Shown one piece after another: positions 14,446 to 48,277 of a stretch of 49,435 nt of DNA (position 1 is the first letter of the stretch; each line of letters begins with the position of its first letter). The position numbers and the translations under genes are program-made. The stretch lies in assembly GCA_013152945.1 (NCBI GenBank), contig JAADFL010000161.1:1-49435 (forward strand), given 5' to 3'. The notes beneath the pieces were generated by a model, which ran no database searches, was not told the DNA's origin, and saw only the letters and a program-made list of their open reading frames with translations. This DNA comes from Deltaproteobacteria bacterium (GTDB lineage Bacteria > Myxococcota_A > JAADFL01).

Positions 14446-17400
14446 ATGTCGCTGAAAAATCAAACATTGCTGAAAAAGATATCCGGCAAAAGGATTTTCA
14501 TGGCTGTTGCAGTTACGGTGCTGCTTTCTTTTATTTTAATAGTGTCCGGGTTGAGCTGCGGGAGCGACACTGTTTCATCCGGAAACAAGGTCTGTCATAG
14601 CGACGACGACTGCGATCAATGGGAGACTTGTGATGGCGGCGTCTGCACATTGAAGGAGCCGTCATGCAACAATGACAGGGACTGTGATCCCTGGGAAATG
14701 TGTCTGAAAGGCAAGTGCATCCTTAAACAGGTCACGGAAGAAGAAGCTGACGCCGAGGCTGATGCAGGTGATGCGGAACAGAGCGAGGCAGAGGAACTCG
14801 TTCCTCCTGAAATCGACGTGGAGCCGAGCAAGGTGGATTTCGGCGCTGCAAGAATCGGATCCCCTGTTACCAGGGATATTTGGATACACAACCGGGGTCA
14901 GGAAATTCTGCATGTTCATTCCATCGAGTTAGAGCAGTCGGGCGGAAACACCTTCGAACTTTCCTATGCAGGAGACCTGCCGTTTCTCGTCAAGCCCATG
15001 GAACCCAGAAAAGTGACAATAACGTACACCCAGGATGACGGGATTCCGGATCAAGGTACATTGCTCATAGCAAGTGATGATCCGGATCCTGATGATGCAT
15101 TGCTTACAGTGCCTCTTTATTCCAGTTATAAGGGCAGCAGTGATCTGGCGGTAGTATTCGATCCTCTGTCGAACGAGCCCGGCGTTCAAAAATTGGACAT
15201 GGGTGAAATCCCTGTAGGAACCGGCACGACTACAGTCATCTATCTGAAGAACATCGGCACGGGCAATTCAGTGCTGTCCATCGACGAACTGGGGATTAGC
15301 CCTCCCACTGCCACTGACTTTTCCGTCAAAGCCACACCCTTGATTCCGGCCTTGCTGTACCCGTTCCAGTCTACTTGTGAAAAGGCGGGTGATTCAGACA
15401 CGGACACGGATACGGATACCGATACGGATACTGATACAGATACTGATACTGATACTGATACTGATACGGATACGGATACGGATACGGATACCGATTCAGG
15501 CACTGATAGTGACACGGGTACTGGTGAAAATAGTTATTGCATCAACAAGTTTGGAAGCGACTACACCTGCACTGATGGTTTGTGTACCGATAAGGATGGA
15601 AACGTGCCTGACCTGGTTAAGGTCGAGATAACATTTCACCCGACAACCGAAGGTGTTTTGCAAGCCTTGCTTGTAATCGGCAACAACAGTGATGCAAGTA
15701 ACGGGGAAACACTGCTTATACCGGTTTCGGGCACAGGCGTGGTCGGCGATCTGTCCGCAGCTCCCAATCCATTGGATTTCGGCATGAAATATACCGGCTC
15801 CACATACAAAGCAGATGTAACAGTTACAAATGCAGGAGGAGATACATTACATATTTCAGCCGTTAAGATGGAGGACGGTGCCAAGAATTTTACTTTTACT
15901 CTCGATAGTTCCCTGCCCATAGTGCTCGAACCATCCAAATATACCGTAATCCACGTGAGCTATTCTCCTGTAAATCCGAGCTTAAGCACAGACAAGATAA
16001 TTGTCGCCAGCGATGCGCCCAGCACTCCAAATTACGAGATCCGGCTTGTAGGCACTGCAATTGATCCACCCATCTTGCAAATCACACCCGGCGCCTTGAA
16101 TTTCGGTTCGGTCCAAGTCGGAGATAGGAAGCAAATGGACCTGAATTTACGAAACATCGGCGGAGATGATCTCTCTTTTTCAGGACTTTCACTTGCATCC
16201 GGCAACAAGTGTTTCTCGTTCACTCCAAATGTGCTTCCAGTACTTACTCCGGGAAAAGCAGCCATGTTGTACGTGGTCTGCGAACCAACCGGCACCGGTA
16301 AGCTCGAAGATCAGTTGGTTATACAAAGTAATGACGCCAGAAATCCTGTCATCAAGGTTAATCTCGATGCCACCGGCAACCAACCCAAACTCTCGGTCAC
16401 GCCGTGGCCTGTGCTGGATTTCCAGGATCTTTACTTCCTTGACATATCTTCCACAAAGACGGTGCACGCCACCAATCAGGGTTTCGGCCCACTGGTAATC
16501 AAGGATATCAACCTTTCAGAAGGAAGCAGCTCGGACTTCACAATGGGTAACGTAAAACTCAACGGCAAAGTTACCAGCCTTCCGGTAACCCTGAATGATT
16601 CGAACTCGGAAATCACTTTCAACGTAACCTATGATCCTGATTCCATAGGCCAGGATACCGGGGCGATTGAATTTCTCAGCAATGTGTTCGGCCAGGAAAG
16701 ATCTTACCTGGGCCTTTCCGGAGTTGGCAGAGATTGTCTTCCCGGAAGCACGGATCTCGATCCCAATGTTCCGGGGTGCGAAACCAAGTGCATTGCCGGA
16801 GCCGAGACCAAGTGCGACAACAAGGACGAAAACTGTGACGGCAAAGTGGACGAAGGATTGTCCAGGCCTTGTTCGGCAAGGTGTGGAGATGGGCTCGAAT
16901 ATTGCAGTCACGGGTCGTATGCAAATTGTGATGCACCGGTGGAATTGCCTGATTTCTATGAGCGACACGAATTCCAGGACGTCATTTACGATGACAACGA
17001 CACGTGCGAGCATGCTACTTTCCTCGGGACCAGCCCGACGAACGTAAATCTCATGGCGACACTGGATACCGATTCTGATGTCGACTATTACGTTTTTTAC
17101 GGCCGGGACGAGTGCAGCATCGTAGATTCCAAGCAACAACTTGTAGACGTGTTTTTACGTGAACTGCCGGATGACTATGATCTCTTCTTGTACAAGGGAT
17201 TAGACAACTGTAAGAGCGACACACCTATACCCAACAACCAGGGTAACACCGGATCATCAACCAATCCCGGGCAAAATGACGAAGAGGTCAAGTACTACGA
17301 GGCCTTTCCAGACCCTTGGACAGGAGGATGGACCGGCGGATGTCCTGATCCATGGGTACAAGACAATGATTCCGATTATTATTACCTTAAAGTCAAGAGG

Positions 17401-19242: not shown

Positions 19243-21441
19243 CTAATTGCAGAACTTCTTGGGATCGTCCACGCACGCCCAGGAGGACTGGAAGCAATAA
19301 CACCAGAAGACTTTTTTGCCGTCCTCGCATGTATATTCCCTGACCTGTCCTTCCTCGCACCAGTCAGGGCACTGGGTCTCCGGTGAATCTATGCAGTACC
19401 ACTTCCCGGTGTCGCACTTGCACCATGGTACAGTCGTGCCGTCATTGCAAGTGTAGTCCTTTGTCTGGCCGTCGGTACAACCGCATTGGCAGAGTCCGTC
19501 CACGCAACTTGGATTCACACAATTCAGGTCGGTACAGTCACTGTCACTCCAACATTCCGCATCGACGCATTCCCCATTCCTACAGACCTTGCCGTCCAAG
19601 GTTTCAGAGGAAACACTGCATTGACCATTGGCACAAAATGGCTTCTTCAGCATGCAGGTCTTGTCTGCCTGCGCGCAGGACGGATCTCCGCATTCTTTGT
19701 CGGAATTACATTTCTGTGGATTCGGAGGCGGGCAGTCATCCGGGCAATTGCACCAATTCTCGCCCGGTCCACACACCTGGTTGCCGCACCTGGTGCAAAC
19801 GAAGCAGGGACAATCCAGGTACTCGCAGTAAGGTTCCGTACCGGGATTCTCGACAGGTGTTGCATCGTCCACCTGGGTCAGGCCGGGACAGCATACATCA
19901 TTGGGACCCGTTTGCGTGAAATGTTCGCCTTCTTTGTGGCAGTCGGTCTGGTCCGGTAAACAGCAAAAGCCTATGTCACCACCAGAGGGATTACAGCTTT
20001 GATCTTGCACCTGGTGGTATCCTTGTTCACATCTTCCACCGATTCCTATGCAGTAACCGCCTTGTTCCTCGCATTTTCCCTGGACAGGCAGGCAACACTT
20101 GGCGGATCGGCCGCCCGGGCAGTCCATTGGTCCCGCATCCTTGAAATTTGGCTCGCAAGGGCTCTGCCACCACGTGCAGTAGCCACCGTTCGTTTCACAC
20201 TCGGTGACCGGTTCGCAATCTGCAGGGCATGTCTTGCTCCTGTTCTCATAATCATCACAGTACCCGTCTCCACATATTCCTCCACAATAGCACTCACCCG
20301 CCTCGATATCACAAAGAGGTTTATCTCCGCCCTGCACAGGTGGACACACAATACTCTGCCTGCATTCTTCGTCGCTTTTGCAGCCAAGGCTGCATTTCCC
20401 TGTATCCTGATCGCACTTGGCATCCGGTACCAAGTTTTCCTTGGTGGAACACTTGCCGTTTTCACAATAAGGAATAATTTCCTGGCAACCATTGTTGGAA
20501 TCCTTGCACTCGGGATTACCGCAATCACCATCGACCCGGCATTCGTTTGGACCCGGTTTATCGCAATCGGCCGGGCAATTACACCAGTTTTCACCGATTC
20601 CACATTCCTTGTCTCCGCACTTGGTGCAGACATAGCATTCGCAGTCCGGGTAACTGCATTGCGGCTGTCCATTTTGGTCGAACCATAACTTTGCATCATC
20701 TACAGCCTTGAGACCTGGACAGCATTTCTGATTGGAGCCAGGTTTGACCTCGTAATGTTCGCCTTCCTCGATACATGATGCCCTGGGAAGGCAACACTCG
20801 GCAGATCTTCCACCCGGGCACCCCATTGGATCCTGTGATGTAACGTACCCGTCTTTGCAGGGATTCATGAAATAGTCACAGTATCCACCCTGTTTTTCGC
20901 AAATATTCTGGGTAGGGCACTGGGATTCCGGAGAATCTATGCATGCCCAGTCACCTTTATAGCACTTGCACCAAGGTACCTTTGTGCCGTCAGAACATGT
21001 GTAAGGCTTTTCTTCGCCTTCCCTGCATCCTGTGTCAGTGTCTGCATCTGTGTCAACGTCGGTGTCAACGTCGGTGTCAACGTCGGTATCAACGTCGGTA
21101 TCAACGTCGGTATCAACGTCGGTATCAACGTCGGTGTCAACGTCGGTGTCAACGTCGGTATCAACGTCGGTGTCAACGTCGGTGTCAACGTCTGTGTCAA
21201 CGTCTGTGTCAACGTCTGTGTCAACGTCGGTGTCAACGTCGGTGTCAACGTCTGTGTCAACGTCTGTGTCAACGTCGGTATCAACGTCGGTATCTGTGTC
21301 CGTGTCGGTGTCGGTGTCCGTGTCAGTGTCAACGTCCGTGTCCCCACTTGGGTTGACATCGCTTGAACATCCCTGGGTAAGACTAAAACCCGGCATCAAC
21401 ATGAATACAGCAATAAAATAACTTAAAAAAAACTTTTTCAT
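19243..21441 (-). CDS. Very Cys-rich lipoprotein with Asp-Val-Asp-Thr tract
   Basis: Encodes 732 residues. GGAGGAG directly precedes ATG 21441. The signal peptide ends in the lipobox LTQGC. A linker of about 100 residues, mostly Asp-Thr-Asp-Val, follows. The remainder is built of disulfide-rich repeats. One unit of about 38 residues (CxxGxxxxYTCxDGTxVPWCKC, then a W-x-C-I-D-S-P-E-x-Q-C end) occurs three times, once after the linker and twice at the C-terminus. A longer block (QGGYC, PGGRSAxCCLP, GEHY, CCPGL, CxVCTxCG, GENWCNCPxDC) occurs twice. No catalytic motif is visible. Likely a rigid extracellular surface protein held out by the acidic linker. Confidence 0.85.
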   Translation of the reverse strand: MKKFFLSYFIAVFMLMPGFSLTQGCSSDVNPSGDTDVDTDTDTDTDTDTDTDVDTDVDTDVDTDVDTDVDTDVDTDVDTDVDTDVDTDVDTDVDTDVDTDVDTDVDTDVDTDVDTDVDTDVDTDVDTDVDTDADTDTGCREGEEKPYTCSDGTKVPWCKCYKGDWACIDSPESQCPTQNICEKQGGYCDYFMNPCKDGYVTSQDPMGCPGGRSAECCLPRASCIEEGEHYEVKPGSNQKCCPGLKAVDDAKLWFDQNGQPQCSYPDCECYVCTKCGDKECGIGENWCNCPADCDKPGPNECRVDGDCGNPECKDSNNGCQEIIPYCENGKCSTKENLVPDAKCDQDTGKCSLGCKSDEECRQSIVCPPVQGGDKPLCDIEAGECYCGGICGDGYCDDYENRSKTCPADCEPVTECETNGGYCTWWQSPCEPNFKDAGPMDCPGGRSAKCCLPVQGKCEEQGGYCIGIGGRCEQGYHQVQDQSCNPSGGDIGFCCLPDQTDCHKEGEHFTQTGPNDVCCPGLTQVDDATPVENPGTEPYCEYLDCPCFVCTRCGNQVCGPGENWCNCPDDCPPPNPQKCNSDKECGDPSCAQADKTCMLKKPFCANGQCSVSSETLDGKVCRNGECVDAECWSDSDCTDLNCVNPSCVDGLCQCGCTDGQTKDYTCNDGTTVPWCKCDTGKWYCIDSPETQCPDWCEEGQVREYTCEDGKKVFWCYCFQSSWACVDDPKKFCN
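21032..21344 (-). repeat. Asp-Val-Asp-Thr codon tract (12-base unit)
   Basis: Array of a 12-base unit, minus-strand GACACCGACGTT with minor variants, over about 310 bases. It codes the linker of the Cys-rich lipoprotein. It has no spacers and is not a CRISPR. Confidence 0.9.
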
Positions 21442-21717
21442 GCTTCTCCTCCTTTGGTTTTCTTAAGAAGCCTGCATTTTTACCATATCAAGGCCGTTCA
21501 ATAAGGCAACTTTCGTGCCATTATTCATTCACTGAAAAAGCCAATGATGTCCTTATAATCATCAATACACATGTACGTTGACTGTAATGATGTTTTGACA
21601 CTGAATTGAAATTTTTGCAAGCTCTGTCATAGTAATGGATGTGCGCTTTGATTCGGATCGTCCCCTTTCGGAACGTCCCCCCGGATCGTCCCCTCATCAT
21701 CGTCCCCTCATCATCGT

Positions 21718-21989
21718 CCCCTCCGTGGTTGATTTTTCGTGGGCCGGATATAGCCGTGATATCAATAGGATATAATGAGTCAAAAAACCGGGACTGTGCA
21801 TTATATGACTGTCGGACGTATAGAGCGGTTTTTTGAGGGGCCCTTTTAGGTGGAAAGCCGACTTGGTCCGGGAGACAAAATAAAAATTGTCTGGATTGGA
21901 TCTCGCATGGGCGGTTCGCGAACCGCCCCTACAACTTCATGAAATGACAGCAAGTTTTTGATGCCTTGAAAATCAACCTGGGTGGGGAG
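21718..21989. mobile_element. MITE-like element, copy 1
   Basis: Non-coding element of about 272 bases. The left end CTCC..GTGGTTGATTTTT and the right end GAAAATCAACCTGGGTGGGG form terminal inverted repeats. Inside are a long imperfect hairpin (AAAAAACCGGGAC ... GGTTTTTT), a short AGACAA/TTGTCT hairpin and a perfect 20-base palindrome at 21909-21928 (GGGCGGTTCGCGAACCGCCC). It matches copy 3 along its whole length. It is preceded by two 14-base CATCATCGTCCCCT repeats (about 21695-21720). I cannot see a target-site duplication. The rest of 21442-21717 shows only the leader of the Cys-rich lipoprotein gene. Confidence 0.75.
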
Positions 21990-22028
21990 CCAGGATCGCC
22001 GTTGACAGGGAGCGAGCCCAGCGCTTGG

Positions 22029-22553
22029 TCATCTGGAAGATTCCCAAAGCACCACTGTCATGGAAGAAACCAGCACACCATCACCATTTTTCGGATCCGC
22101 GCAGGTGCCGAGGTGCCATGGAACGAACCTTGCCTCTATGGTGCCAAGACATTCGAGGAACGATCTCTCCAGGGCTTTCCCCGGACCACCTCCTTTGAGC
22201 GGGACGATCCTGGCAACAGCGAGTCCCCTGCCAGGGCTGCTGGTGATACTGAACTTTACCTGCTCTGGTACGGCACTTGGTGCAGAGGTCTGCAGGCATC
22301 CGCACACAGCCTCCTGAATGGCGCGATAAATCGGTGTCAGGGCGCGGGCCACGGCCTGGCCGCTCAGCACCGCGCTCCTGTGAGGGACGGTCCAGGGCTC
22401 GAGGCACAGGTCCCCCTTGCGGTCGTATCTGCGGCCCTCCTGATGCTGTGCAGGCTCAACATGCATCTTGGGCGGCTGCGCCACGACAGCGCAAGAGCCT
22501 GCCAGCAGGGCCAATACGCCTATGATGAGCAGTCGTATGGCAATCTTAATCAT
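22029..22553 (-). CDS. Small lipoprotein with AgmX/PglI-like C-terminal region
   Basis: Encodes 174 residues. ATG 22553 (MIKIA) has GGAG a few bases upstream and is preferred to ATG 22565. The signal peptide ends in the lipobox LAGSC. The C-terminal 100 residues match the general pattern of the TonB-like AgmX/PglI C-terminal domain of gliding-motility and related myxobacterial proteins: a helix with Cys pairs, 'V-K-F-S-I', 'LE-S-FLECL' and 'FVPW'. This is a pattern judgement and not a confirmed homology. The gene ends just right of MITE copy 1 and transcribes toward it. Confidence 0.65.
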   Translation of the reverse strand: MIKIAIRLLIIGVLALLAGSCAVVAQPPKMHVEPAQHQEGRRYDRKGDLCLEPWTVPHRSAVLSGQAVARALTPIYRAIQEAVCGCLQTSAPSAVPEQVKFSITSSPGRGLAVARIVPLKGGGPGKALERSFLECLGTIEARFVPWHLGTCADPKNGDGVLVSSMTVVLWESSR

Positions 22554-22565
22554 GGACAACTCCAT

Positions 22566-22908
22566 TCACCTTGGTGCTTATGACAATCAAGCAGGGTTGT
22601 TGTTCCCTTTCACAGTATGAAACCATGAAATACGGAATTCATCCTTCCCCACCGATCTCTTTCCCCACCGGGGTATCCTGTGAATTATTTTTTTTAACAA
22701 AAGCGCAAAACTCCTCTGGCTGGACAGGAAAAACATTTACAGCGCTAAAAAAACAGTTATGGTACGGATTTACATGGGAAATTTCGTTACGCAATGTTCG
22801 TGCATATCCTGTGCTCGAAAACTACCATGCTTGATAATGAATCACGAAACATGGGGCTGCGAATGTGAGACGCTTGGCGAGCCGCCCATGACCGGGCCTG
22901 AAAGGGCT
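22566..22908. other. Intergenic stretch
   Basis: 343 bases between the small lipoprotein and the barrel protein. Short reading frames here lack ribosome-binding sites. It contains CCCCACCGAT-type pieces near 22650, like the flanks of the MITE copies, and nothing else I can support. Confidence 0.5.
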
Positions 22909-23466
22909 CTAGAAGAATGCCTGCACGCCCAGATATCCAATCGGAACGTTAAGCGAGCTGCCCTGGTCGTCGAGCCCGACGTTGTAGATGATGGTAGTGC
23001 CCAAGTCGACGCCCACGTGCTGGTTGAGCGGAATCAGCAGGCCAATGGGAACACCGATTGCCAGGGACTTAATCGAGTCGCCCTTGTCCGGCGACATTAT
23101 CGCCATTGCCACGGCCACTCCCAGGTGCAGCTTGAAGGAGCTTACTCCAATGAAGTAGTTGGCCCCTGCGCCAAAAGAGTAGTTCTTGGAAGATCCGTCA
23201 TAGAGATCGCCGAAGCCCAGGCCAATGCCTGCCGATACGGTAAGCTCCAGGTCGTCAATCACGAAGTAACCTGCGTTCGGACTCACTTGGAACCAGAACC
23301 CTGTCTGACTGTCCCCTTTCTCTGGCATGAACATGTCGATCGAGAACGTGGTACGTCCCCCGAGCTGCATGGTTCCCGCAGTCGTTTGCAGATCCTCTGC
23401 AGCAACAAGTGAGCTCAACACCATTGCAGAACTCAAGGTTAGTGCAACAACAATAGATTTTCTCAT
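22909..23466 (-). CDS. Small outer-membrane beta-barrel-like protein
   Basis: Encodes 185 residues. Start ATG 23466 (MRKSIVVALTL) is preceded by GGGAGGTG, and a Sec signal peptide ends near SLVAAED. The frame continues upstream to 23628 without support. The mature part is an alternating Gly/aromatic/hydrophobic pattern with about eight beta strands (FSFGAGANYFIG, LELTVSAGIGLGFG) and ends in Phe-Phe, as outer-membrane barrels with a terminal aromatic do. It resembles OmpA-like or Opa-type eight-stranded barrels in size. Ligand unknown. Confidence 0.75.
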   Translation of the reverse strand: MRKSIVVALTLSSAMVLSSLVAAEDLQTTAGTMQLGGRTTFSIDMFMPEKGDSQTGFWFQVSPNAGYFVIDDLELTVSAGIGLGFGDLYDGSSKNYSFGAGANYFIGVSSFKLHLGVAVAMAIMSPDKGDSIKSLAIGVPIGLLIPLNQHVGVDLGTTIIYNVGLDDQGSSLNVPIGYLGVQAFF

Positions 23467-24048
23467 CTTCCACCTCCCTGTGTTGTGGTTTTGCATCGTT
23501 TCTAAAGCAATACGTGTGCCAGGAGCATCCCTTCTCGGAATACACATTACCTGTTTGTACCAGCATGATTCAGACTGCACTTTATTTGTTATGCTCCCTT
23601 GTACGACCGCGGCCTTCCTGTTCGACAACGCACCACCACCGTGCGATATCGAACGCTGCCCTAGTGAACAATCACCTCCATGTCCCTAATGTCCACCGAG
23701 GGCTGCAGCGCCGTGGCCATGATGGTTGCGGTCGCAGCCACGACCACCAGGTCCTCCCCCACGATCCTCGATCCTCCCCCACCGATCCTCCCCATCCTCC
23801 CCCTCGATCCTCCGATCCTCCCCCACCGAGGTTGATTACATCACCCCTGAAAAACCTCGTGCTTTCAAAAAGATAAATCACTCCAAAAAAACCGCGGTAC
23901 CCAAACACTGAAGTTGCAAACCATGACCTGCTGGCCCTGGTGCTCAATCCACTGATTTTGGGTGTCTCGAAGGTAAAAATGGGGAACTTTTAGGGTATTC
24001 TGTTGGCGGGTCGGCCCGCAGAGTCAGGCGCGAAAAATATGTGGAAGA
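23467..24048. other. Intergenic region with C/T-rich array and a solo element end
   Basis: 582 bases without a convincing gene. 23745-23837 is a C/T-rich array of CGATCCTCCCCC-like units. It ends in CCCCACCGAGGTTGATT (23821-23837), which matches the left terminus of the MITE-like element and then diverges. Confidence 0.55.
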
Positions 24049-24648
24049 CTAAACAATCCTGATTTTGCATTTTCTAGCTGCACTGGCAATTCGATGCCAA
24101 ACTGCCGTCTCTGATACCTCATGATCACTGAGCCGAATTAATGTTGCTAGATTCGCCCTATCCGTTAATATGACATTCTCAGATGAAGCCTGACGCCCTC
24201 TCCAGCGTATCCCAACAAGATCAGGGAATTGTAAATATAATGCCCTCGCCCACTCTTGAGTTGCTCCATAGTCGGTTGTAGTACAGATTTGCTGATCCAA
24301 TCCAAGATGACGCGGTCCGACTCCATAGAAGTCAACTACATCGAATGGCGCTGTAAGTTCAACAGTGCAGATTCGCCTCCCGCAATTCTGGTCAAGAAAC
24401 CCTGTCCTTCCGAAGGATTCTGCTACTGCACCGATCAATGAACCTGAAGCATACCAGACTGACTCCGGATCGGAGTCGCCTTTGGGGGGTGGATGGTGAT
24501 CAAAGCGTTGATCTCTCATTGGTCCATAGTGCCGGCCAGTGTTCCAATTCTGTCTAAATGGATTGTAGAAACGTACAAGCTTCTTCCCTACAGGTAGGGA
24601 ATGAACTTTTGGTCTTGGGAGCGGTGTTGATGGTCGAGGGATAGTCAA
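24049..24648 (-). CDS. RES-domain toxin-like protein
   Basis: Encodes 199 residues. The RES fold is suggested by the order RFYNPF / RDQRFDHHP (conserved Arg), VWYASGSLIGAVAESFG (conserved Glu), TTDYGATQEWARALY and GIRWRGRQASSENVILTDR. RES toxins degrade NAD+ or ADP-ribosylate targets. The third signature residue, a Ser in a Y-x-S-R context, appears as Gly (WRGR), with two Ser shortly after, so activity may differ from characterised RES toxins. The start is TTG 24648, overlapping the TGA of the upstream antitoxin (TTGA), so the two are translationally coupled. Antitoxin-first order is typical of Xre/RES loci. Base composition is more AT-rich than the neighbourhood, consistent with transfer. 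Confidence 0.75.
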   Translation of the reverse strand: MTIPRPSTPLPRPKVHSLPVGKKLVRFYNPFRQNWNTGRHYGPMRDQRFDHHPPPKGDSDPESVWYASGSLIGAVAESFGRTGFLDQNCGRRICTVELTAPFDVVDFYGVGPRHLGLDQQICTTTDYGATQEWARALYLQFPDLVGIRWRGRQASSENVILTDRANLATLIRLSDHEVSETAVWHRIASAARKCKIRIV

Positions 24649-25445
24649 GGCATATGGCCGTGCTCTTCAGCGAGCTCAATGACATCGTCAGTTTGTCCAG
24701 TTCTGAGCAACTCAATTGGCGCATGATTTCCAAGGTCCTTGAAAGCCTTGGTGAGCCATGCAGCCGACCCTGCTGGCGAAAGTTGGAGATGAGCCAGGAC
24801 CTCTCCTAGTCCTGGAAGTACACCTCCGGGATAATCGGGATCAAATTGCCAACGCGGGTACCTCCAACGATTCTTTACACGAAGTGCCAGGATCTTTCCT
24901 TTTCGACGTAGTTCTTCTAATCGCTGACGTGTGCGTTCCGCTATTCGTGCTGCATCCTCGACACCAATACAGCTTGCCAGAATCATCCTACGTAGCTCTC
25001 TAGTTTCAAGTTCTGCTTCCATTCGACCTAACAACACCTCCTTTTCGGATGTCTTATCTACCTCGGCAAGAGGATCTTCATCGGACGAAGCAAATCGTTC
25101 CAGTACTTCGGAAACACACTTTGATGCTATTTCAACCCTATCTTCATATGTCTTGTCCTGGCTTAGTTGAACGAGAGTCTCGATTACACCGAAGGCTTCT
25201 GATTCAAGACGAGCTGCGGCAACAGCTACCTCAAGCCTTTTAACCGGAATTTCTAATCGATAAGAAACTTCGCGCAGGACTTCTGCAACTGCATCTGGAA
25301 AACCAAGTGCTTTAGCTGAGTTCCCGGAAGGTCCAAATGCAGAGACTTTTCGAGTACAGGATGCCTGACGCCCGGATGTCTTATTGGCCTTTTTAGAGCT
25401 GCCCTTTTGCGCCCTTAGCCCTTGAGCTGCTTTCTTTTTTGCCAT
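24645..25445 (-). CDS. Antitoxin-like protein with ParS/MbcA/Xre-type toxin-binding end
   Basis: Encodes 266 residues. Start ATG 25445 (MAKKKAAQG) has GGAGG; the frame is open to 25502 without support. The N-terminus is a Lys/Ser-rich tail, then a helical region (about 60-150) of no known family. A HTH-like segment (about 165-210, IGVEDAARIAERTRQRLEELRRKGKI) follows. The C-terminal 50 residues have the motif W-L-T-K-A-F-x-x-L-G-x-x-A-P-I-E-L-L-R-T-G-Q typical of the domain that caps RES toxins. It is longer than ordinary Xre antitoxins (about 150 residues). It should neutralise the RES protein and repress the operon. Confidence 0.7.
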   Translation of the reverse strand: MAKKKAAQGLRAQKGSSKKANKTSGRQASCTRKVSAFGPSGNSAKALGFPDAVAEVLREVSYRLEIPVKRLEVAVAAARLESEAFGVIETLVQLSQDKTYEDRVEIASKCVSEVLERFASSDEDPLAEVDKTSEKEVLLGRMEAELETRELRRMILASCIGVEDAARIAERTRQRLEELRRKGKILALRVKNRWRYPRWQFDPDYPGGVLPGLGEVLAHLQLSPAGSAAWLTKAFKDLGNHAPIELLRTGQTDDVIELAEEHGHMP

Positions 25446-25486
25446 GGGCAACCTCCTTGCTGCACCCTTGTAAAGGGTAGCAAAAG

Positions 25487-25502
25487 TTGCAATAAAATGC
25501 AA
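25487..25502. promoter_or_regulatory. Candidate operator of the RES module
   Basis: Inverted repeat TTGCA-ATAAAA-TGCAA about 42 bases upstream of the antitoxin ATG, in an AT-rich segment. It would suit autorepression by the antitoxin. Confidence 0.3.
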
Positions 25503-25546
25503 GATATTATTACAAAACAGAGTACCCTTCTGCGCGTCCCCCGCGT

Positions 25547-25705
25547 CCCCCCACCGTGGTTGATTTTCCTGGAGGCGAATATAACCGTGATATCAACAGG
25601 ATATAATGAGTCAAAAAACCGGGACCATGCATGATATGGGTGTATGGCATATCGGTCGGGTTTTTTAGGGGCCTTTTTAGGTGCAAAGCCGACCTGGGTG
25701 GGGAG
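25547..25705. mobile_element. MITE-like element, copy 2 (internally deleted)
   Basis: About 159 bases. Left end CCCCCCACCGTGGTTGATTTTCC. It follows copies 1 and 3 through the AAAAAACC/GGTTTTTT-type hairpin (arms about 25613-25625 and 25654-25666) to GCAAAGCCGACCTGG. It then jumps straight to the right terminus GGTGGGGAG, losing the roughly 113 bases present in the other copies. Confidence 0.75.
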
Positions 25706-25744
25706 GCTTCAAGAGGATAAGAATTTTTAAACCAACAAAATCGT

Positions 25745-25806
25745 TATAATAAACTAAAACTTGCACACTAAACAAAAAAAGTTTAGTATGCAATAAAAGG
25801 TTTAGT
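25745..25806 (+). promoter_or_regulatory. Promoter and operator of the MarR-like/nucleotidyltransferase module
   Basis: TATAAT at 25745-25750 is a perfect -10 box; the -35 region is weak. Just downstream is an inverted repeat TTGCACACTAAAC (25761-25773) / GTTTAGTATGCAA (25781-25793), 12 of 13 pairs, with an A7 loop. Extra half-sites lie nearby, CTAAA near 25754 and GTTTAGT at 25800-25806. AbiEi-type antitoxins bind inverted repeats in this position. Confidence 0.55.
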
Positions 25807-25820
25807 CAAAAGGGGAAACA

Positions 25821-26810
25821 ATGATTTGGCTCCAAAAACTCAAGGACTACCTGGAAAACCTGCTGAGACAGGAACTTTCTATTGCTCCTTTGCCTCAGGG
25901 GAAAATGCATGGGCTACCTTTATATCTGTCAAAAATGTATGCGCCTTACCAGATGGAGGTTTTCGGGGGAAAACTTATTCTACTCAGAAATCTTGGTGAA
26001 ACCAGCTCGCCAGGAAAGATAGCCAAAGACATCGCCAGTCTGTATCGTCATTTTGGCATAAACGTCGCTGTTGTTTTTGATGACCTCACTTCATGGGAAA
26101 GAAAACGGCTCATAGAAAATGGGACGCCTTTTATTGTTCCGGGTCGTCAGCTTTTTCTGCCAATGTTTTTTTTGGATTTACGCGAACATTTTCCTAATGG
26201 ACCTGCTGAAAAGCCAAAGTACCTGTCGAGAGCAGCACAGCATGTCGTGCTGCGTCAGATCCTGCTAGGCGATCTGGAAAAACGAAACATGGCAGACCTC
26301 GCAACGCTTCTTGGTTATTCAGCAATGATGATGACAAAAATTCGCAACGAGCTTTTTGCTCTCGATCTTTGTGAGGTTGAAACCAAGGGTCGTGGTCGTT
26401 ATATGGTTTTTCCCCTGCCTCCTGAACAATTATGGCCAAAGGCACTTACAAAAATGCGTTCTCCTGTTTTTAAAACACACTTTCTTATCGGAAAAATCAG
26501 TGGTGTTAAAGTTGCAGGTGCAAGTGCCTTAGCAAAACGCAGTCTGCTCAAGCCGGATGGGTTGCCCACATTCGCGGTTTGGAAAAAAGAGTTCAAAAGC
26601 ATTCTGAAAGAAAACAGTCTTGTGGAGATTCAAAGTGAAGAGGGAGCCGATCTTGTTCTGGAGGAATGGTATTACGACCCGCAAAAGCTTTCGGATGATG
26701 CGCTGGTTGATCAACTATCTTTGTACTTATCTCTCCGTGATAATTCAGATGAACGCATACAAATAGCTCTTGAAGAAATGATGGAGACAGTACCATGGTC
26801 AAAGGAATAG
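25821..26810 (+). CDS. MarR-like winged-helix regulator/antitoxin (AbiEi-like partner)
   Basis: Encodes 329 residues. AGGGGA at 25811-25816 precedes ATG 25821. The N-terminal 120 residues form an uncharacterised alpha/beta domain ending in RKRLIENGTPFIVPGRQLFLP, a strongly family-like stretch. A winged helix follows at about 136-196 (HVVLRQIL, DLATLLGYSAMMMTKIRNEL, GRGRYMVF), then a C-terminal domain with VAGASALAKRSLL. I recognise the layout from proteins annotated as MarR-family regulators encoded directly before a nucleotidyltransferase. It overlaps the next gene by 16 bases. By analogy with AbiE it would be the antitoxin and autorepressor. Its function has not, to my knowledge, been shown for this subfamily. 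Confidence 0.75.
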   Translation: MIWLQKLKDYLENLLRQELSIAPLPQGKMHGLPLYLSKMYAPYQMEVFGGKLILLRNLGETSSPGKIAKDIASLYRHFGINVAVVFDDLTSWERKRLIENGTPFIVPGRQLFLPMFFLDLREHFPNGPAEKPKYLSRAAQHVVLRQILLGDLEKRNMADLATLLGYSAMMMTKIRNELFALDLCEVETKGRGRYMVFPLPPEQLWPKALTKMRSPVFKTHFLIGKISGVKVAGASALAKRSLLKPDGLPTFAVWKKEFKSILKENSLVEIQSEEGADLVLEEWYYDPQKLSDDALVDQLSLYLSLRDNSDERIQIALEEMMETVPWSKE

Positions 26811-27574
26811 ATTTTTTTCAAACCTACTTCGAGAAATACGCAGACTGCTACCTCGTCATCGGTGGCGCCGCTGCATCTGAGTGGTTCGCCAAACAGGAAC
26901 TGACATTTCGCGCCACCAAAGACATTGATATTGTGCTCTTGATTGAAGCGATTAACGATGCCTTTATAAAACACTTTTGGGATTTTGTGCTGGAAGGTGG
27001 TTATGAAATCAAACAACGCAGCGACGGTCGCCCTATTTACTACCGATTCGCCAAGCCACAAAGAAATGACTTTCCTGAAATGCTGGAACTTTTTTCCAGA
27101 GGACCCAGCGGATTATCTTTAGGCGATAAACAGACGGTTGTACCAATTCCAAAAGAAGATGATGCTTCAAGCCTTTCAGCAATCCTAATGGACGTAGATT
27201 ACTACAGGGTAGTTCACGATTTCAGAGAAGTAATCGCAGGTCTTCCTCTTATCACACCGGCTGGTATCATCCTGCTTAAAGCCAAAGCCTGGCTCGATTT
27301 ATCTGCTCGTTCCCGGTCCGGAGAAAGAATTGACGGCAAGCATATTAAAAAGCACCGAAACGATGTATTCAGAATGGCCATGCTTCTCCCTGCTGGCGAG
27401 GTATTCACAGTGCCGCAAAACGTATACGACGATCTTCACCTGTTTCTCGAAGCATTCCCTGAACAATCACCGGAGTGGAAAAACATCAAAGCGGCTGTTG
27501 GTAAAAACCCGGTGCTGCCGCCGGTACGTGAAGTAATCGCAGCTTTGAATGATGCTTTTAGTCCTCCCAAATAA
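26795..27574 (+). CDS. Nucleotidyltransferase, AbiEii/MNT-like toxin candidate
   Basis: Encodes 259 residues. The Pol-beta-type nucleotidyltransferase core is visible: the Gly-Gly helix start in VIGGAAASEWFA (G23-G24) and the metal-binding pair in FRATKDIDIVLL (D43, D45). A later acidic strand around MDVDYYRVV may give the third carboxylate. The C-terminal half is helical, with LLKAKAWLDLSARSRSGE and IKKHRNDVFRMAMLL, a Lys-rich stretch as in AbiEii-family proteins. It starts inside the preceding gene (16-base overlap). The likely action is transfer of nucleotides to tRNA or protein, but this is inferred from the fold only. Confidence 0.75.
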   Translation: MVKGIDFFQTYFEKYADCYLVIGGAAASEWFAKQELTFRATKDIDIVLLIEAINDAFIKHFWDFVLEGGYEIKQRSDGRPIYYRFAKPQRNDFPEMLELFSRGPSGLSLGDKQTVVPIPKEDDASSLSAILMDVDYYRVVHDFREVIAGLPLITPAGIILLKAKAWLDLSARSRSGERIDGKHIKKHRNDVFRMAMLLPAGEVFTVPQNVYDDLHLFLEAFPEQSPEWKNIKAAVGKNPVLPPVREVIAALNDAFSPPK

Positions 27575-27646
27575 ATGGTTTTATGGAATCACGAAAAAGT
27601 TATGATTATCGTCCCCTACCGATTGTCCCCTCTCTCTCGCGCGCGC

Positions 27647-27919
27647 CCTCCACCGTGGTTGATTTTCCGTGGGGCGAATATAACCGTGATATCAATAGGA
27701 TATAATGAGGCAAAAAACCGGGACCATGCATAATATGGGTGTACGGCATATCGGTCGGGGTTTTTAGGGGCCTTTTTAGGTGCAAAGCCGACCTGGTACG
27801 AGAGACAAAATATAAATTGTCTGGGTTGGATCTCGCATGGGCGGTTTGCGAACCGACCCTACAACTTCATGAAATAACAGCAAGTTTTTAATGCCTTGAA
27901 AATCAACCTGGGTGGGGAG
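27647..27919. mobile_element. MITE-like element, copy 3
   Basis: About 273 bases, the same orientation as copies 1 and 2, running from CCTCCACCGTGGTTGATTTTCC to GAAAATCAACCTGGGTGGGGAG. The internal palindrome is mutated here (GGGCGGTTTGCGAACCGACCC). It fills most of the 401-base gap between the nucleotidyltransferase and the subtilase gene. A GTCCCC-rich flank (27610-27646) precedes it. Confidence 0.75.
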
Positions 27920-27975
27920 CCAGGGTGGGTGGGGAAGCAAAGCAAGAGGCGCAATATTGTCGCCCTTTGGGCTTC

Positions 27976-31701: not shown

Positions 31702-34232
31702 AGAGGCTTAAATTTTCGGGATCCGGCGTATTCCTGTTGCTGTTTGCAATTCTTTTGCTGGCATGGTCTTCAGGATGTGGCTCGGGCAGTACACCCGGAG
31801 GAGGTGACACGGACATCGACACCGACACTGACACCGACACTGACATCGACACCGACACTGACACCGACACCGACACCGACATCGACACCGACACTGACAC
31901 CGACACCGACATTGACACCGACACCGACACTGATACCGACACCGACACCGACGCCGACACCGACACTGATACCGACACCGACACTGACACCGACACTGAC
32001 ACCGGCGTGTGTACACAGGATGCTGATTGCCCAAACCAGTATACATTCGCATGTATAGATGGGACTTGTTACCAGAAATGCTTCAATGACCAAAACTGTA
32101 AGCCGGACGAGATATGTGATCCTGACCCGCAGCTTCACTGCGTGCCGGCAGAGTGCCAAAAAGATGAAGATTGCCAGGGCGAAAACGTGAGATGCCTGGA
32201 TAAACGATGCCAGACTTACGATGTTTGTCCGAACGGAACCGACGAAGAGTGCCCGCAGAATTTCAGGTGTATCGACTACAACGGTAAGAATATTTGCGAA
32301 AAGAGAAAGACATGTGTGGGAGACAATGATTGTCAGCAAGGAGAGATTTGCAAGAGCGGCTATTGTTATGAAGCGGCTACGTGTACGAAAGAGGCAGACT
32401 GCAAGAAAGACGAGGATTGTGTTGGAGGCAAGTGTGTGCCTCATGTTTGCAGGGGCCCGGACGATTGCAACGCCGGAGAGGTCTGCTCGGGCGGCAAGTG
32501 CGTGAAAGAGCCGGACAACCCGCCTCTGAACGATGTGAAGATCTTGACTCCGGGCAGTACCATGGAGATTGGGCAAAAGAAGCTATTCCTGGCACAAGGC
32601 TATGACCCGGCAGGTAACGTAATAGTGGGCTTGAAGTTCAAGTGGACATCCAGTGATGAGGGCATATTGGCTGTCGAACAGGATACCGGCATGGCAGAGG
32701 CCAAGGCAGAGGGACTGGCCGTGCTTACAGCCGATGCCTTGGTCGGCGGTGCTCCGAGTGGCACAAAAGACGATGTAACTGTAAAAGTCGTTGCCAAGGC
32801 AGGTGATACGGACTTGAGAATAATGGTCATGGACAAGGCCACCATGGAGCCTGTTGTTGGGGCAGTGGTTGAATACAATGGTGATACAAAGGATACAGAC
32901 AACAATGGACAGGCGACTTTTACAAAGGGAAACGGGAAGATCGATGTCACTGTTTTTGCAGAAGACTATGACTATGTTTCATTATTCGGTATCAACAAGA
33001 ATGATATCATGATCCCGTTGAAGAAGCGCACCGATCCTTCCAAGGCAGCGGGATTTACAGGAGCTTTTTCAGGCTATCCCGGCGGCAGGGCCATATCCCT
33101 TGGATTGGCCGGCGCCAGTATTGGAGGAGATATAACCAACATGAATCTACCCGTTCTCGTTGGTGACACTATCAATACAGAGGTGCAAATCCCCTGGGGT
33201 GGTACGTATAACATACCACTAACAGGGGGATTGACTCTTTCTATCGACTTGATGGGAACCAAATACCCTGTAAAGGAGCAATTCCAGGTTTTGGCCATGC
33301 CCGGCCAGAGGATGGCGTGGGGACTTGCAGGAACCCTTAATGCGAGCGAGTTGGACTGGAAGTCCATGAGCAATGGTGACCCGGCCGTAATCCTGGCAAA
33401 GGTCTTGCCGTTCTTCGAACGGTTCAACCATGCAATAAAATCCGTGGGTAAGTTAAACGCCATACCGAAAATCCAGGACAAGGATGACTATGACAAGGAT
33501 GGTGATACAACCGAAATGATTGCAAATTACAAGTCTTTTGCAACCAAGACATTGGATCCGGACCAGGAACAGACCTTGCGAGCCAACATTGTGCTGCCGA
33601 AACTTCCAGACTCCGGACCTCCATTGGATGCCGCATTGGTATTGCCCGGCACGCTGGTCCCATCCATAGGCTTCGTGCCGTTGGGTTTGAACGTAAAGAC
33701 AGCAGGCGACCAGGGCCTTGGAAGCATAACAATGAAACTTGCGCCTCAACATGGGGGCCTGGAGATAGGTACATACAGTATATTGGCATTGGCCATCGAC
33801 AGTTCAGGGGCTGGAAGTAACGGCCAGATTTCCACCCATGCCTCGGGTAGATTGGTTGTAACAAAAAACCTGCCGCCTGATATTGAATTTTCCGAACCCT
33901 TCCTGTCCTTTGCAGACCAGAGTAAATACACTGCGGCAGAAAGAAAGGTAGAGGTCGGTCCCAAGGTCGACGGCGCATCCTTTTATCGGGTCATAATAAA
34001 CGGAGAAAACAGGCATTGGGATGTTTATATTGCCGGCGATGATCTCTCGGCCAGGGTATTGCCCCAGGTTCCTGATGGATTCGATGACCCCGGGGTGTCC
34101 ACAACAGGTTGGATCGAGTCTATTTCAGATGTCGGGGGAAAGACTCTGGGTGATCTCGCAACAATGTCGTTGCAGGGTCTGGCCAGGTTGAATAAGTACT
34201 TGAGCGGTTTTTCAAGAATGGAGCTTCAATGA
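31698..34232 (+). CDS. Large lipoprotein with Asp-Thr/Ile tract, Cys-rich repeats, BIG2-like and regulatory-like beta domains
   Basis: Encodes 844 residues. The signal peptide ends in the lipobox SSGC. A tract of about 67 residues alternates Asp with Thr, with regular Ile. Six or so short Cys modules follow (CxxDxDC, CxxGxC pattern, about 110-275). A BIG2-like domain lies at about 280-370 ([32 protein letters not shown]) and a CarboxypepD_reg-like domain at about 375-440 ([22 protein letters not shown]). The last 400 residues are beta-rich and of no family I recognise. It is translationally coupled to the preceding small gene. Likely surface-exposed. Confidence 0.85.
31806..32006 (+). repeat. 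Asp-Thr/Ile codon tract (GACACC/GACACT/GACATC)
   Basis: Hexamer array coding the linker of the lipoprotein. It uses GAC almost exclusively, unlike the GAT-based tract at 15391. Confidence 0.9.
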
Positions 34233-35442: not shown

Positions 35443-37544
35443 TCAGGCTGTGGACTGTCCTGCCATACACGGCCGTCTTCCACAAACTGTGAATCATCGG
35501 GACTCGCCGCGTTCCAGTCCACGTATCCCACTTCCCAAAACGTATCTTTCCGCAAGAGTTGCCTGGTCACGGATGCCTTTTCACTGCCATTCAGGAACAC
35601 TCTGACAGTGGCATAGGTGAATGGCGGGTATTTTGCGTAGTCATCGAAGTAATGGACTACCACCCTGTATGGTTTGTGGTTGGCGGGATCAGGCAACCTG
35701 ATGGTTTCCGGCCCCCATCCGTCGTCGTCATCCCTGTCCAGGCTCGGATGACCGTCACCTCCCCAGTTAGGGCTTTTCTCGTAGAACCAGCAGTCATCGC
35801 TACCCTTCCTGTACGAACCACCGGGTCTTATCATGTGAAGATCGACATCCGTATCCGGATTGTCCCAGGTGAGTTCGACCATTACCTTGACTTCCGGTTT
35901 GGCCTTTATGTTCACCTCTGCAACGTTCTTGCTGGATAATCCCTCGTTGTCGGTTACCACCAACCTGACCTTGTAGTCTCCTGCCAGGTCCAACCACAAC
36001 CTGGGTGTACCTGTCGTTGGATTCTGCAACGTCGTATGGCTGTTGGGGGGTGTGCCTGCTATTGTCCAGGAGTAAGCAGCAATACTTCCGTCCGGGTCAT
36101 AACTCGCTGTTCCATCAAGGGCCACGGTATCAAGGGGCTTGGCTTGTTGGTCAGGCCCTGCATCTGCAATAGGCGGCTTGTTCTCATAGTTTCCACTGCC
36201 GTTCATGGGCACGTCGAGCACTGATTCATCCAAGTCATCACTCTCTATGACCAGGGTGCCGTTGTCCACGTCACTCTCCAATGCAGGGGTATAGGCTACT
36301 TCAACGTGCAGGGGTTGACCGTTTTCATTTTCGCTCTTTATGTCGATGGGCAAAGCCAGATTGGATGTCATCCGGAAGTGGCTTGACGAGCCTGGATCAA
36401 GGTAGACCTTGCTGATTGTCAAGGTCCTTGTGCCGACATTCTTGATATCAAGACCCATTTTTGTATCCTGGCCGGGCCTGCACCCGCCGAAGTTGAGGTT
36501 GTCGGGTTCCACCTCGATCTCGGGATTGCCCTTGTACCGGCTGATGAGCTTAACCTTGGCATCGGGAATTTCAGGGTCGTCGCTATGGACTATTGCCGTA
36601 GCCTGGTCAGGCTTGTCGTCCAGTGCCTTGAGCTGGATCACGTATTGGTACGCCGATGATTGGGGCTTGAGTACCTTGCCGTTAGGCTGGGGAGTAATAG
36701 GCGAAAATTCCATCAAGGGATCATCCTCGATGGTTATCTCGCTGATAGTAAGGTCATCAGTCCCGATATTCCTTATGTACATGGTTTGCCTGCGCTCCGC
36801 TCCCTTGATTACACTGCCGAAGTCCATGATCGCCGGAGTTATGTAGATATTCTTACCCGTAATATCCGCAGGCCCTGTGTCAGTGTCAGTGTCAGTGTCG
36901 GTATCTGTATCAGTGTCGGTGTCTGTGTCAGTGTCGGTATCTGTATCAGTATCTGTATCAATATCCGTGTCGGTGTCGGTATCCGTATCCGTATCCGTGT
37001 CGGTGTCGGTATCCGTATCTGCGTCACCGCACTGGTCCTTGATACACCAACCATATCCCTTGTCGGGCAAGGGGACACATACATAGCACCTGGGGCAATC
37101 CTTGCCGGTTGTACATTTATCTCCCTGCACCACCTTGCAATGTTTGAACAGGCATCTCATGTCTTCCCTGGGACAATCCTGGTCCTGGTCACAGCCTGGA
37201 AGGGAAAAACATGTTCCGTTCTTGCAATACTGGCTGGCATTGCAATCCGTGTCCTTTTCGCAGGAACTGCGCGTGCAGGATCCGGCAACACATGTCATGT
37301 CCCCCCTAGGGCAGTCATCATCGTAAGTGCAGGCAGGCAGCAGCTTGCAAGAACCTGAATCACAGTAGTCGGAACCGGAGCAGTCAAAGTCGTCGTGACA
37401 TCCGGCTGTATTGTCCGAGCCGGCACAAGAAAACAGGGCGGGCAGGAAGAGCAATGCGGCGCCGGCTGCAATCATCGCTATCATCGTATTCCTGCCGGCC
37501 TGGGCTTTTTCCTTCGAACTTTTCAAAATGCTTGAAAATCTCAT
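35439..37544 (-). CDS. Secreted lipoprotein: Cys repeats, Asp-Thr tract, ASH domains, PKD and YfaP-like domain
   Basis: Encodes 701 residues. GGAGGG precedes ATG 37544. A signal peptide ends at LFSCAGS, a lipobox candidate. Residues about 48-170 hold Cys modules of the CxxDxDC/CxxGSC kind. The Asp-Thr tract spans about 173-223. Two ASH/choice-of-anchor-D domains follow (NIYITPAIMDFGSV, EVEPDNLNFGGCRPG), then a PKD domain (PPIADAGPDQQAKPLDTVALDG, YDPDGSIAAYSWTIAG). The C-terminus is a YfaP/DUF2135-like domain (VELTWDNPDTDVDLHMIRPGG, PYRVVVHYFDDY). It has the same building blocks as the 14446-17475 protein in another order. Probably a surface adhesin or scaffold. Confidence 0.85.
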   Translation of the reverse strand: MRFSSILKSSKEKAQAGRNTMIAMIAAGAALLFLPALFSCAGSDNTAGCHDDFDCSGSDYCDSGSCKLLPACTYDDDCPRGDMTCVAGSCTRSSCEKDTDCNASQYCKNGTCFSLPGCDQDQDCPREDMRCLFKHCKVVQGDKCTTGKDCPRCYVCVPLPDKGYGWCIKDQCGDADTDTDTDTDTDTDTDTDTDIDTDTDTDTDTDTDTDTDTDTDTDTDTDTGPADITGKNIYITPAIMDFGSVIKGAERRQTMYIRNIGTDDLTISEITIEDDPLMEFSPITPQPNGKVLKPQSSAYQYVIQLKALDDKPDQATAIVHSDDPEIPDAKVKLISRYKGNPEIEVEPDNLNFGGCRPGQDTKMGLDIKNVGTRTLTISKVYLDPGSSSHFRMTSNLALPIDIKSENENGQPLHVEVAYTPALESDVDNGTLVIESDDLDESVLDVPMNGSGNYENKPPIADAGPDQQAKPLDTVALDGTASYDPDGSIAAYSWTIAGTPPNSHTTLQNPTTGTPRLWLDLAGDYKVRLVVTDNEGLSSKNVAEVNIKAKPEVKVMVELTWDNPDTDVDLHMIRPGGSYRKGSDDCWFYEKSPNWGGDGHPSLDRDDDDGWGPETIRLPDPANHKPYRVVVHYFDDYAKYPPFTYATVRVFLNGSEKASVTRQLLRKDTFWEVGYVDWNAASPDDSQFVEDGRVWQDSPQPD
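36876..37026 (-). repeat. Asp-Thr codon tract (mixed GACACT/GATACA/GATACG)
   Basis: Hexamer array, about 150 bases, coding the (Asp-Thr)n linker with one Ile. Codon mixture differs from the other tracts. Confidence 0.9.
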
Positions 37545-45555: not shown

Positions 45556-45598
45556 TAGGTGACGCCGCACCGGTGCCATGCAAAGCCGGCGGCCGTGA

Positions 45599-45660
45599 GC
45601 AATAGTCGGGTGGCCCCGGGAGGTTTCCCTCCCGGGGCTCCCACAGAACCGGACGTGCCC
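45599..45660 (-). mobile_element. Solo group II intron 3' end
   Basis: On the minus strand GGGCACGTCCGGTTCTGTGG resembles the 3' strand of intron domain V. It is followed by a domain VI-like hairpin (GAGCCCCGGGAGG / CCTCCCGGGGCC) and CCCGACTAT. The same 62-63 bases recur at 47570-47632. No other part of an intron is recognisable here. Confidence 0.6.
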
Positions 45661-45713
45661 AATTCTTCACCGCCGGTGGGCCCTTTAGGGGTGTGTTGGA
45701 CAAGAGTGGTCTT

Positions 45714-47342: not shown

Positions 47343-47569
47343 GAAAATTAATTACAGTTAAGCAGGATTCCGATGGAAACTGTTATTTGCTTTAGTGATT
47401 AGAAAAACTGTTATGCCGGCGGAAAAACGATTACGATAGGTGCATCTTCCGGAATAAAGCTTACGGGTAAGCTGCGCGGCGGCGAGAGGTGCCACCCGAA
47501 TAGTACCGAATAGTAACAGGCACGGTGTATTGCTGTAATAGCATGGAGATAAACACGTTCTTCCCGTTG

Positions 47570-48277
47570 GCAATAGTCGGGTGGCCCCGGGAGGTTTACC
47601 TCCCGGGGCCACCCACAGAACCGGACGTGCCCAAGCTGAAGAACCTTGTCCTCGAAAGCAGGAACCCCGATGGGACGGGTTCGCTTCCCGTCGCCCTTCG
47701 GAATATGCACTCGACGAACCGGATGCGCACGGTAGCGCCCGGACTTGAAGCGCTCCAGCAGATCCTGGAGGTTCGCCTCCAGGTCCGCTGCATATTGCGC
47801 TGCCGTCCGGCCATCAACTCCCACCGCGCCGTCCTCCCGTGTGCGGCGATAGGCCTCTCCAAGCCATTACTGGTCAATATGATGAGCTAAGGTCGTCCAC
47901 ACCATCTGCGGCGCCTCGTGCGACCGCTTCGCTACCTGCTGGAGTTTCGTTGACACGCTTCTCGGGCCCGATGTCCCGGACATCTTTCCCTCCAACAGCT
48001 CCATAGCCCGACTCCTCTCTTCCCTCCACGGGGTCCGACGGGTCACGTTCCCCCGCTTCAACGGTACTATCGAGGAGCTCCGACTTCTCGCCGACCATCC
48101 CCCGTCACTTCGTTGCCTTCGCTCTGGGGTACCATCGTGGCGCTCGCTTTTCGTCTCTCCCGCGGTTGCGAACACCAGCTTCCGCGGGCCTGGCCTTGGT
48201 CACCGGGTTGCCAGCCGGTCTGCTCGACACTACCTCATGTGGCTTCCCCCTTTCCCAAGCTTTGCTTGGCGCACACC
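47570..48277 (-). mobile_element. Deleted group II intron relic
   Basis: On the minus strand it begins near GTGTGCGCC (48277), a 5' GUGYG-type end, and runs through structured leader sequence into a reverse-transcriptase reading frame. After the codons for FEDKVLQ it jumps directly to the domain V/VI-like 3' end (47632-47570). Most of the maturase gene and the 5' strand of domain V are therefore missing. Confidence 0.65.
47636..47983 (-). pseudogene. Group II intron reverse transcriptase/maturase, N-terminal remnant
   Basis: Reads MSGTSGPRSVSTKLQQVAK ... LAHHIDQ, then a TAA (47869-47867) where the family normally has a sense codon (Glu by memory). It continues in the same frame as [19 protein letters not shown] ... 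[33 protein letters not shown]. These are the RT0-RT1 motifs. The protein breaks off before the YADD region, so it cannot be active. Confidence 0.85.

Follow-up and report, generated by a model that had tools for sequence, protein, structure and literature searches.

Short gene-free elements of a Myxococcota genome are probably derivatives of a Y1/HUH transposon and carry tandem arrays at their ends

What are the three similar, gene-free stretches that lie between the genes of a Deltaproteobacteria bacterium (Myxococcota_A), and what could have placed them there? We analyzed them in a window that comprises the whole 49,435 nucleotides of contig JAADFL010000161.1. An earlier note on this DNA had described a same-orientation family of three copies sharing almost their whole length. 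All three do have the same orientation and copies 1 and 3 are 88% identical over 275 nt, but copy 2 (94% identical to copy 3 over 151 nt) is not near-full-length: it is a derivative of ~155 bp that corresponds to copy 3 without what lies between two direct ACCTGG repeats, terminates ACCTGGGTGGGGAG at 25705 and, owing to the deletion, has a right repeat without its inner part. The inverted-repeat ends proposed in the note were recovered as 5'-CCGTGGTTGATTTTC on the left, starting near 21723, 25553 and 27652, and GAAAATCAACCTGGGTGGGGAG on the right of copy 1 and of copy 3 (27898-27919). These terminal inverted repeats are ~22 bp and read outward as GAAAATCAACC-N-GGGGA. The starts given in the note had to be shifted, the similarity beginning at ~21721, 25551 and 27650 and the bases at which the note began the copies being already part of flanking arrays. 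That the copies lie between genes holds for all three; they have no coding capacity and no gene fits within them. A GTAG-tagged palindrome is found in the interior of copies 1 and 3, not at an element end, the DNA strand folds better than shuffled sequences (z -2.36), and comparison of the window with Rfam gave no match. The features are listed in Table 1.

Table 1. Positions of the elements, their ends and the arrays beside them in the window.
Feature	Position	Strand	Remarks
Copy 1, two-ended element (A-type)	21721..21989	+	no gene inside
Copy 2, internally deleted derivative	25551..25705	+	deletion between two ACCTGG repeats
Copy 3, two-ended element (A-type)	27650..27919	+	no gene inside
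Copy 1, left terminal inverted repeat	21721..21738	+	CTCCGTGGTTGATTTTTC
Copy 1, right terminal inverted repeat	21968..21989	+	GAAAATCAACCTGGGTGGGGAG
GTAG-tagged palindrome inside copy 1	21909..21932	-	GTAGGGGCGGTTCGCGAACCGCCC; also in one-ended B-type copies
Left array outside copy 1	21657..21720	.	words ACGATGATGA, ACGATCCG, ACGTTCCGAAA (reverse strand) alternating with GGGG scraps
Left array outside copy 2	25536..25550	.	GCG word alternating with TCCCCC
Left array outside copy 3	27609..27649	.	ACGAT../ACAATCGGTA words and GGGG scraps, reverse strand
Right array outside copy 3	27920..27936	.	CCAGGG word, then second TGGGTGGGGA scrap
End of second, related element family	23816..23959	-	outward end TAATCAACCTCGGTGGGGGA
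Array outside second-family end	23760..23819	.	word GGATCG alternating with CGGTGGGGGA scraps

The copies are not a local duplication, a possibility that the note had raised against its own proposal: BLASTN of copy 3 against the 4.84-Mb genome gave 42 matches, genome-wide. The 19-nt right end AATCAACCTGGGTGGGGAG occurs at 115 sites with at most 2 mismatches, 61 of them exact, whereas the reversed pattern, used as a control, occurs at none. Two-ended elements of ~155-310 bp number 10 when distinct copies are counted, copy 2 and an element of another MAG among them, and ~27 B-type copies have the right end only; these one-ended copies have the right ~140 bp in common and other repeat modules to their left. 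Nor does the similarity fade gradually past the ends, which the note had likewise considered. Compared with a relative's copy on contig JAADFT010000029, ~30 copies have their right boundary on the same base (+/-1) and halt at the same GGGGAG. That contig belongs to a Calditrichota bin (L110/L117) and carries copies of the family under study; since it is the only contig of the bin that matched the query, it looks like a stray contig, i.e. binning contamination from a relative of the source organism. Many contigs of the genome begin or stop beside element ends, which is to be expected if a draft assembly contains such repeats. Analysis of the flanks of the 10 two-ended copies revealed no target-site duplication, the longest string common to both flanks having a mean of 3.6 nt compared with 3.57 nt for mismatched flank pairs. 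One copy (L010, around C212:88100-88450) lies between direct repeats of ~45 bp (AAACC.TTTCTATTATAGTAGGCATATGAGATG.AACTTTTTT). An empty-site comparison with the Calditrichota bin JAADFT01 was abandoned, as one bin contig matched the query and no close orthologous flank was found in the genome under study.

The note's proposal to look for a transposase gene that shares these terminal repeats led to a second Myxococcota MAG, where the end adjoins a full Y1/HUH gene. Scanning 84,980 genomes for AAATCAACCTGGGTGGGG gave 22 stretches, most of them in unrelated sequence, and these look like chance. Three records stood out, namely the Myxococcota MAGs PMKP01 and JAGOFO01, each with several array-flanked ends, and the Calditrichota-bin contig with copies of the family. 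On JAGOFO010000075 the end motif is located directly upstream of a 323-aa transposase ORF, whose product scores 26.8 against Pfam Y1_Tnp (cut-off 23) and 62.6 bits against NCBIfam REP_Tyr_transpos (NF047646), under the cut-off of 80. Six aligned members of this transposase family all match NF047646 (best E 8.8e-18) and have invariant HUH histidines (H60/H62) and an invariant Y120; the best PDB match of their profile is TnpArep 4er8 (E 0.0042). The PMKP01 contig breaks just past the same end, and the start there reads MSLPREVLPGRTYMI, by eye the same transposase family. The family is present in 60 of the 377 genomes of the phylum, often in multiple copies; JAGOFO01 is one of the 377 (G160, 100% match), which assigns the genome under study to Myxococcota as well. 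The exact end motif was found among the 377 in the own genome only, indicating that the exact ends are lineage-specific, though the transposase family occurs in 60 of them.

In the own genome, a profile of six relatives detected four C-terminal transposase fragments (E 2.8e-19 to 3.7e-8), on contigs C92, C158 and C1, in each case at a contig end, and on C171. The same end motif recurs ~250 bp downstream of the C-terminal match on C1 and C171. At the contig ends of C92 and C158 (L135 and L136) the transposase C-terminus is followed by a common region with GAATAAGGA(A/T)(A/T)TAGTAGCTCC, duplicated in L136, which possibly represents a second TIRYT subfamily with other ends. No HUH domain and no intact autonomous copy were found in the assembled contigs, and the Pfam search of the genome for a RAYT-type Y1 gene was empty because only C-terminal fragments were assembled. 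Three of the four fragments lie at contig ends, and repeats were likely lost in assembly. An intact autonomous copy in the same genome is not part of the definition of the TIRtron class. Around L085 no long coding element with these ends was found, and among viral contigs two matches were obtained, neither with arrays or an element.

We read the copies as non-autonomous (MITE-like) derivatives of a TIRtron, an insertion element with ~22-bp terminal inverted repeats on which a Y1/HUH transposase (TIRYT) acts, and give this reading a probability of roughly 0.65. It draws on what can be taken from the sequence: the family and its ends, the absence of target duplication, the association with TIRYT genes or gene fragments and the arrays in tandem beside the ends. 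The copies would have been mobilized by a TIRYT provided in trans, by way of cleavage of single strands and their transfer. Against this reading, the HUH domain is absent from the genome's own assembled contigs, and the driving enzyme is thus not visible there in intact form, and the copies and the own transposase elements have only the terminal repeat in common, not the interior. In addition, the ~27 copies with a right end only are left unexplained by a simple two-ended mechanism.

The earlier note knew of no named family with these ends. The class, known but scarcely studied, had been named TIRtron/TIRYT in 2013 by Di Nocera et al. (PMC3733652), while the sequence family is absent by name from that paper; the class probably corresponds to subclass 2.1 in Quentin et al. 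2018 (PMC6006769). TIRtrons resemble the present system in their Y1/HUH transposase with a C-terminal extension and in long terminal inverted repeats with a GGGG core (PMC3733652). The published motif of these repeats is GGGGWSAS, and the ends found here, GGGGAG and GGGGAC, fit GGGGWS; the A that follows is not fixed, the flanking word beginning there. A further resemblance is that TIRYT repeats form moderately abundant families and are single, dimeric or grouped (PMC3733652). As differences, the repeats here bound gene-free elements of ~150-310 bp with a conserved interior of their own, read outward as GAAAATCAACC-N-GGGGA and are accompanied by word-plus-scrap arrays. With REP, REPIN and BIME sequences and their RAYT (TnpAREP) the family shares a related transposase, intergenic repeats and the GTAG-tagged palindrome inside copies 1 and 3; unlike in REPtrons, the ends are 22-bp inverted repeats and not GTAG hairpins, and the JAGOFO01 protein is under the cut-off of the NCBIfam RAYT model. 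IS200/IS605 members (IS608, ISDra2) likewise have a Y1 transposase and lack target-site duplication, but have no terminal inverted repeats (PMC2817692). Relative to the open-licence literature searched, three things are new: MITE-like derivatives that lack genes and have a conserved interior, how abundant these are in a Myxococcota genome, and the arrays.

The earlier note also overlooked the arrays around the ends. Just outside the ends, on both sides of elements, there are tandem repeats of a locus-specific word of 4-12 nt that take turns with truncated element ends; the array unit is [locus-specific word][right-hand scrap of element end]. On C61 the array reads end-TGCCCGG-GAG-TGCCCGGCT-GGGTGGGGAG-TGCCCGGCT-CCGGGAG-TGCCCGGCT-flank and on C72 end-AGTCCAGT-CAAAATCAACCTGGGTGGGGAG-AGTCCAGT-flank. 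Since the word opens the flank and the scrap extends up to the exact end of the element, every duplicated block straddles the junction. The 5-nt flank word recurs within 90 nt at 39 of 77 distinct ends, compared with a mean of 8.8 and a maximum of 19 for permuted words in 2000 permutations. The recurring word directly follows at least 3 nt of end scrap in 42 of 64 cases (3.9% at control positions) and at least 5 nt in 25 of 64 (1.8% in the control). Of the 64 junctions, 30 parse cleanly, the others being mutated or nested. In these 30, breakpoint microhomology is mild (mean 1.7 nt, 0.84 nt expected). The duplicated blocks vary at both ends, words and scraps about equally (SD 3.3 and 3.0); these values give no support to a constant word length, which would have indicated a fixed nick. 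The breakpoints have no clear consensus of a C|T cleavage signature. By eye, the inner word AATCCGG lies beside copies on both C95 and C73, the outer flanks of which differ, and arrays thus seem to have moved together with elements. In the flanks of TIRYT genes from other Myxococcota, 14 of 28 upstream and 10 of 24 downstream windows (24/52 altogether) contained direct repeats of 12 nt or more, compared with 4 of 49 control windows. The open-licence literature searched gave no description of such arrays for TIRYTs, and one may exist elsewhere; tandem reiteration with flanking DNA is mentioned for REP clusters by Di Nocera et al. (PMC3733652), and the phenomenon thus has some precedent.

How might the arrays have arisen? 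Cleavage by HuH enzymes including TnpAREP leaves a 5'-phosphotyrosine and a 3'-OH able to prime replication or to transfer a strand (PMC8266576). The transposase could nick at or near the end junction, the freed 3'-OH could prime short synthesis across the junction, and the end could then be rejoined to the 5'-phosphotyrosine strand; such a round of nicking, extension and rejoining would duplicate a block made of an element-end scrap and the flank word. We put forward this origin of the arrays tentatively, at somewhat less than even odds. The main rival, which we hold to be rather unlikely, accepts TIRYT-derived elements and ascribes the arrays to the host: slippage during replication, or the repair of breaks, at ends that are G-rich and form hairpins, the transposase taking no direct part. 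The ends are indeed G-rich (GGGTGGGGA) and pair with each other in the fold, some arrays are plain word repeats without element scrap, and the mild microhomology at the breakpoints is what slippage also predicts; together with the limited share of cleanly parsed junctions, it tells against the nicking model. Yet the repeats cluster at the element junction and not in windows 300 nt away (7/73), a recurring word was found at just 2 of the 11 G-rich motifs lying away from ends (a small sample, and at least one of the 2 may itself be another element's end), and arrays also accompany ends of different sequence beside TIRYT genes elsewhere, with a CACA word and AACCTGGGAGGGAAGG at L143 and with CTCAGGAAGC and GGGTCGGGG at L144.

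The elements themselves could be classical MITEs, mobilized by a DDE transposase that recognizes terminal inverted repeats and duplicates its target, as the MITE-like label of the earlier note might suggest. Classical bacterial MITEs are defined, in PMC3733652, as gene-free, intergenic elements of 70-300 bp with terminal inverted repeats of 15-30 bp, and the copies agree with this, and with RUP, NEMIS and Nezha, in size, inverted repeats, missing coding capacity, dispersal and intergenic position. The label holds for these traits, for the copy number and sharp ends and for the existence of a transposase gene with the same ends, but not in the classical sense, as no target duplication was found and the transposase found with these ends is Y1/HUH and not DDE; we regard a DDE origin as very improbable. 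Marginally less probable again is an RNA-based, target-primed insertion, in which a reverse transcriptase would repeatedly add 5'-truncated copies at one nicked site and so generate the scrap-plus-word units. The constant end, the truncated scraps and the repeated target words do resemble truncated target-primed insertions; however, the arrays occur at both ends of inverted repeats, and the ends are tied to a Y1 transposase. An RVT_1 search of the own genome found no match to a reverse-transcriptase family, and a reverse-transcriptase origin was rejected on that account.

If TIRYTs nick and reseal their own insertion junctions again and again, with short primed synthesis in between, they would write locus-specific tandem arrays. 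These might then be a general signature of one branch of the HUH transposases and give rise to intergenic repeats that change quickly; this extension we offer more tentatively than the origin of the arrays itself. Delimited ends, many copies and a legible record at the junctions yield testable predictions on where the enzyme cuts and how strands are rejoined. A flank word in tandem with a truncated end is also a sequence signature by which such elements can be found in MAGs, where the transposase gene itself can drop out as assemblies break at it.

The window holds further features. The related-family end between copies 1 and 2 (Table 1), not reported in the earlier note, has relatives on contigs C13, C19 and C73. 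Between the same copies, at 24049-25502 (-), the gene of a RES-domain protein (PF08808) overlaps an HTH gene, an arrangement that resembles a RES/Xre toxin-antitoxin pair. The interval from copy 2 to copy 3 has a further two genes that overlap (25821-27574, +); they had no Pfam, NCBIfam or PADLOC match and by eye resemble an AbiE-type pair of regulator and nucleotidyltransferase. Long 12-bp tandem repeats within reading frames (15379-15530, 20974-21390, 31776-32040 and 36855-37043) encode Asp/Thr-rich (DTDTD-like) linkers. At 45593-45662 and 47564-47634, ~1972 nt apart, there are near-identical stretches of ~70 nt with a CCCCGGGAGG..CCTCCCGGGGC palindrome.
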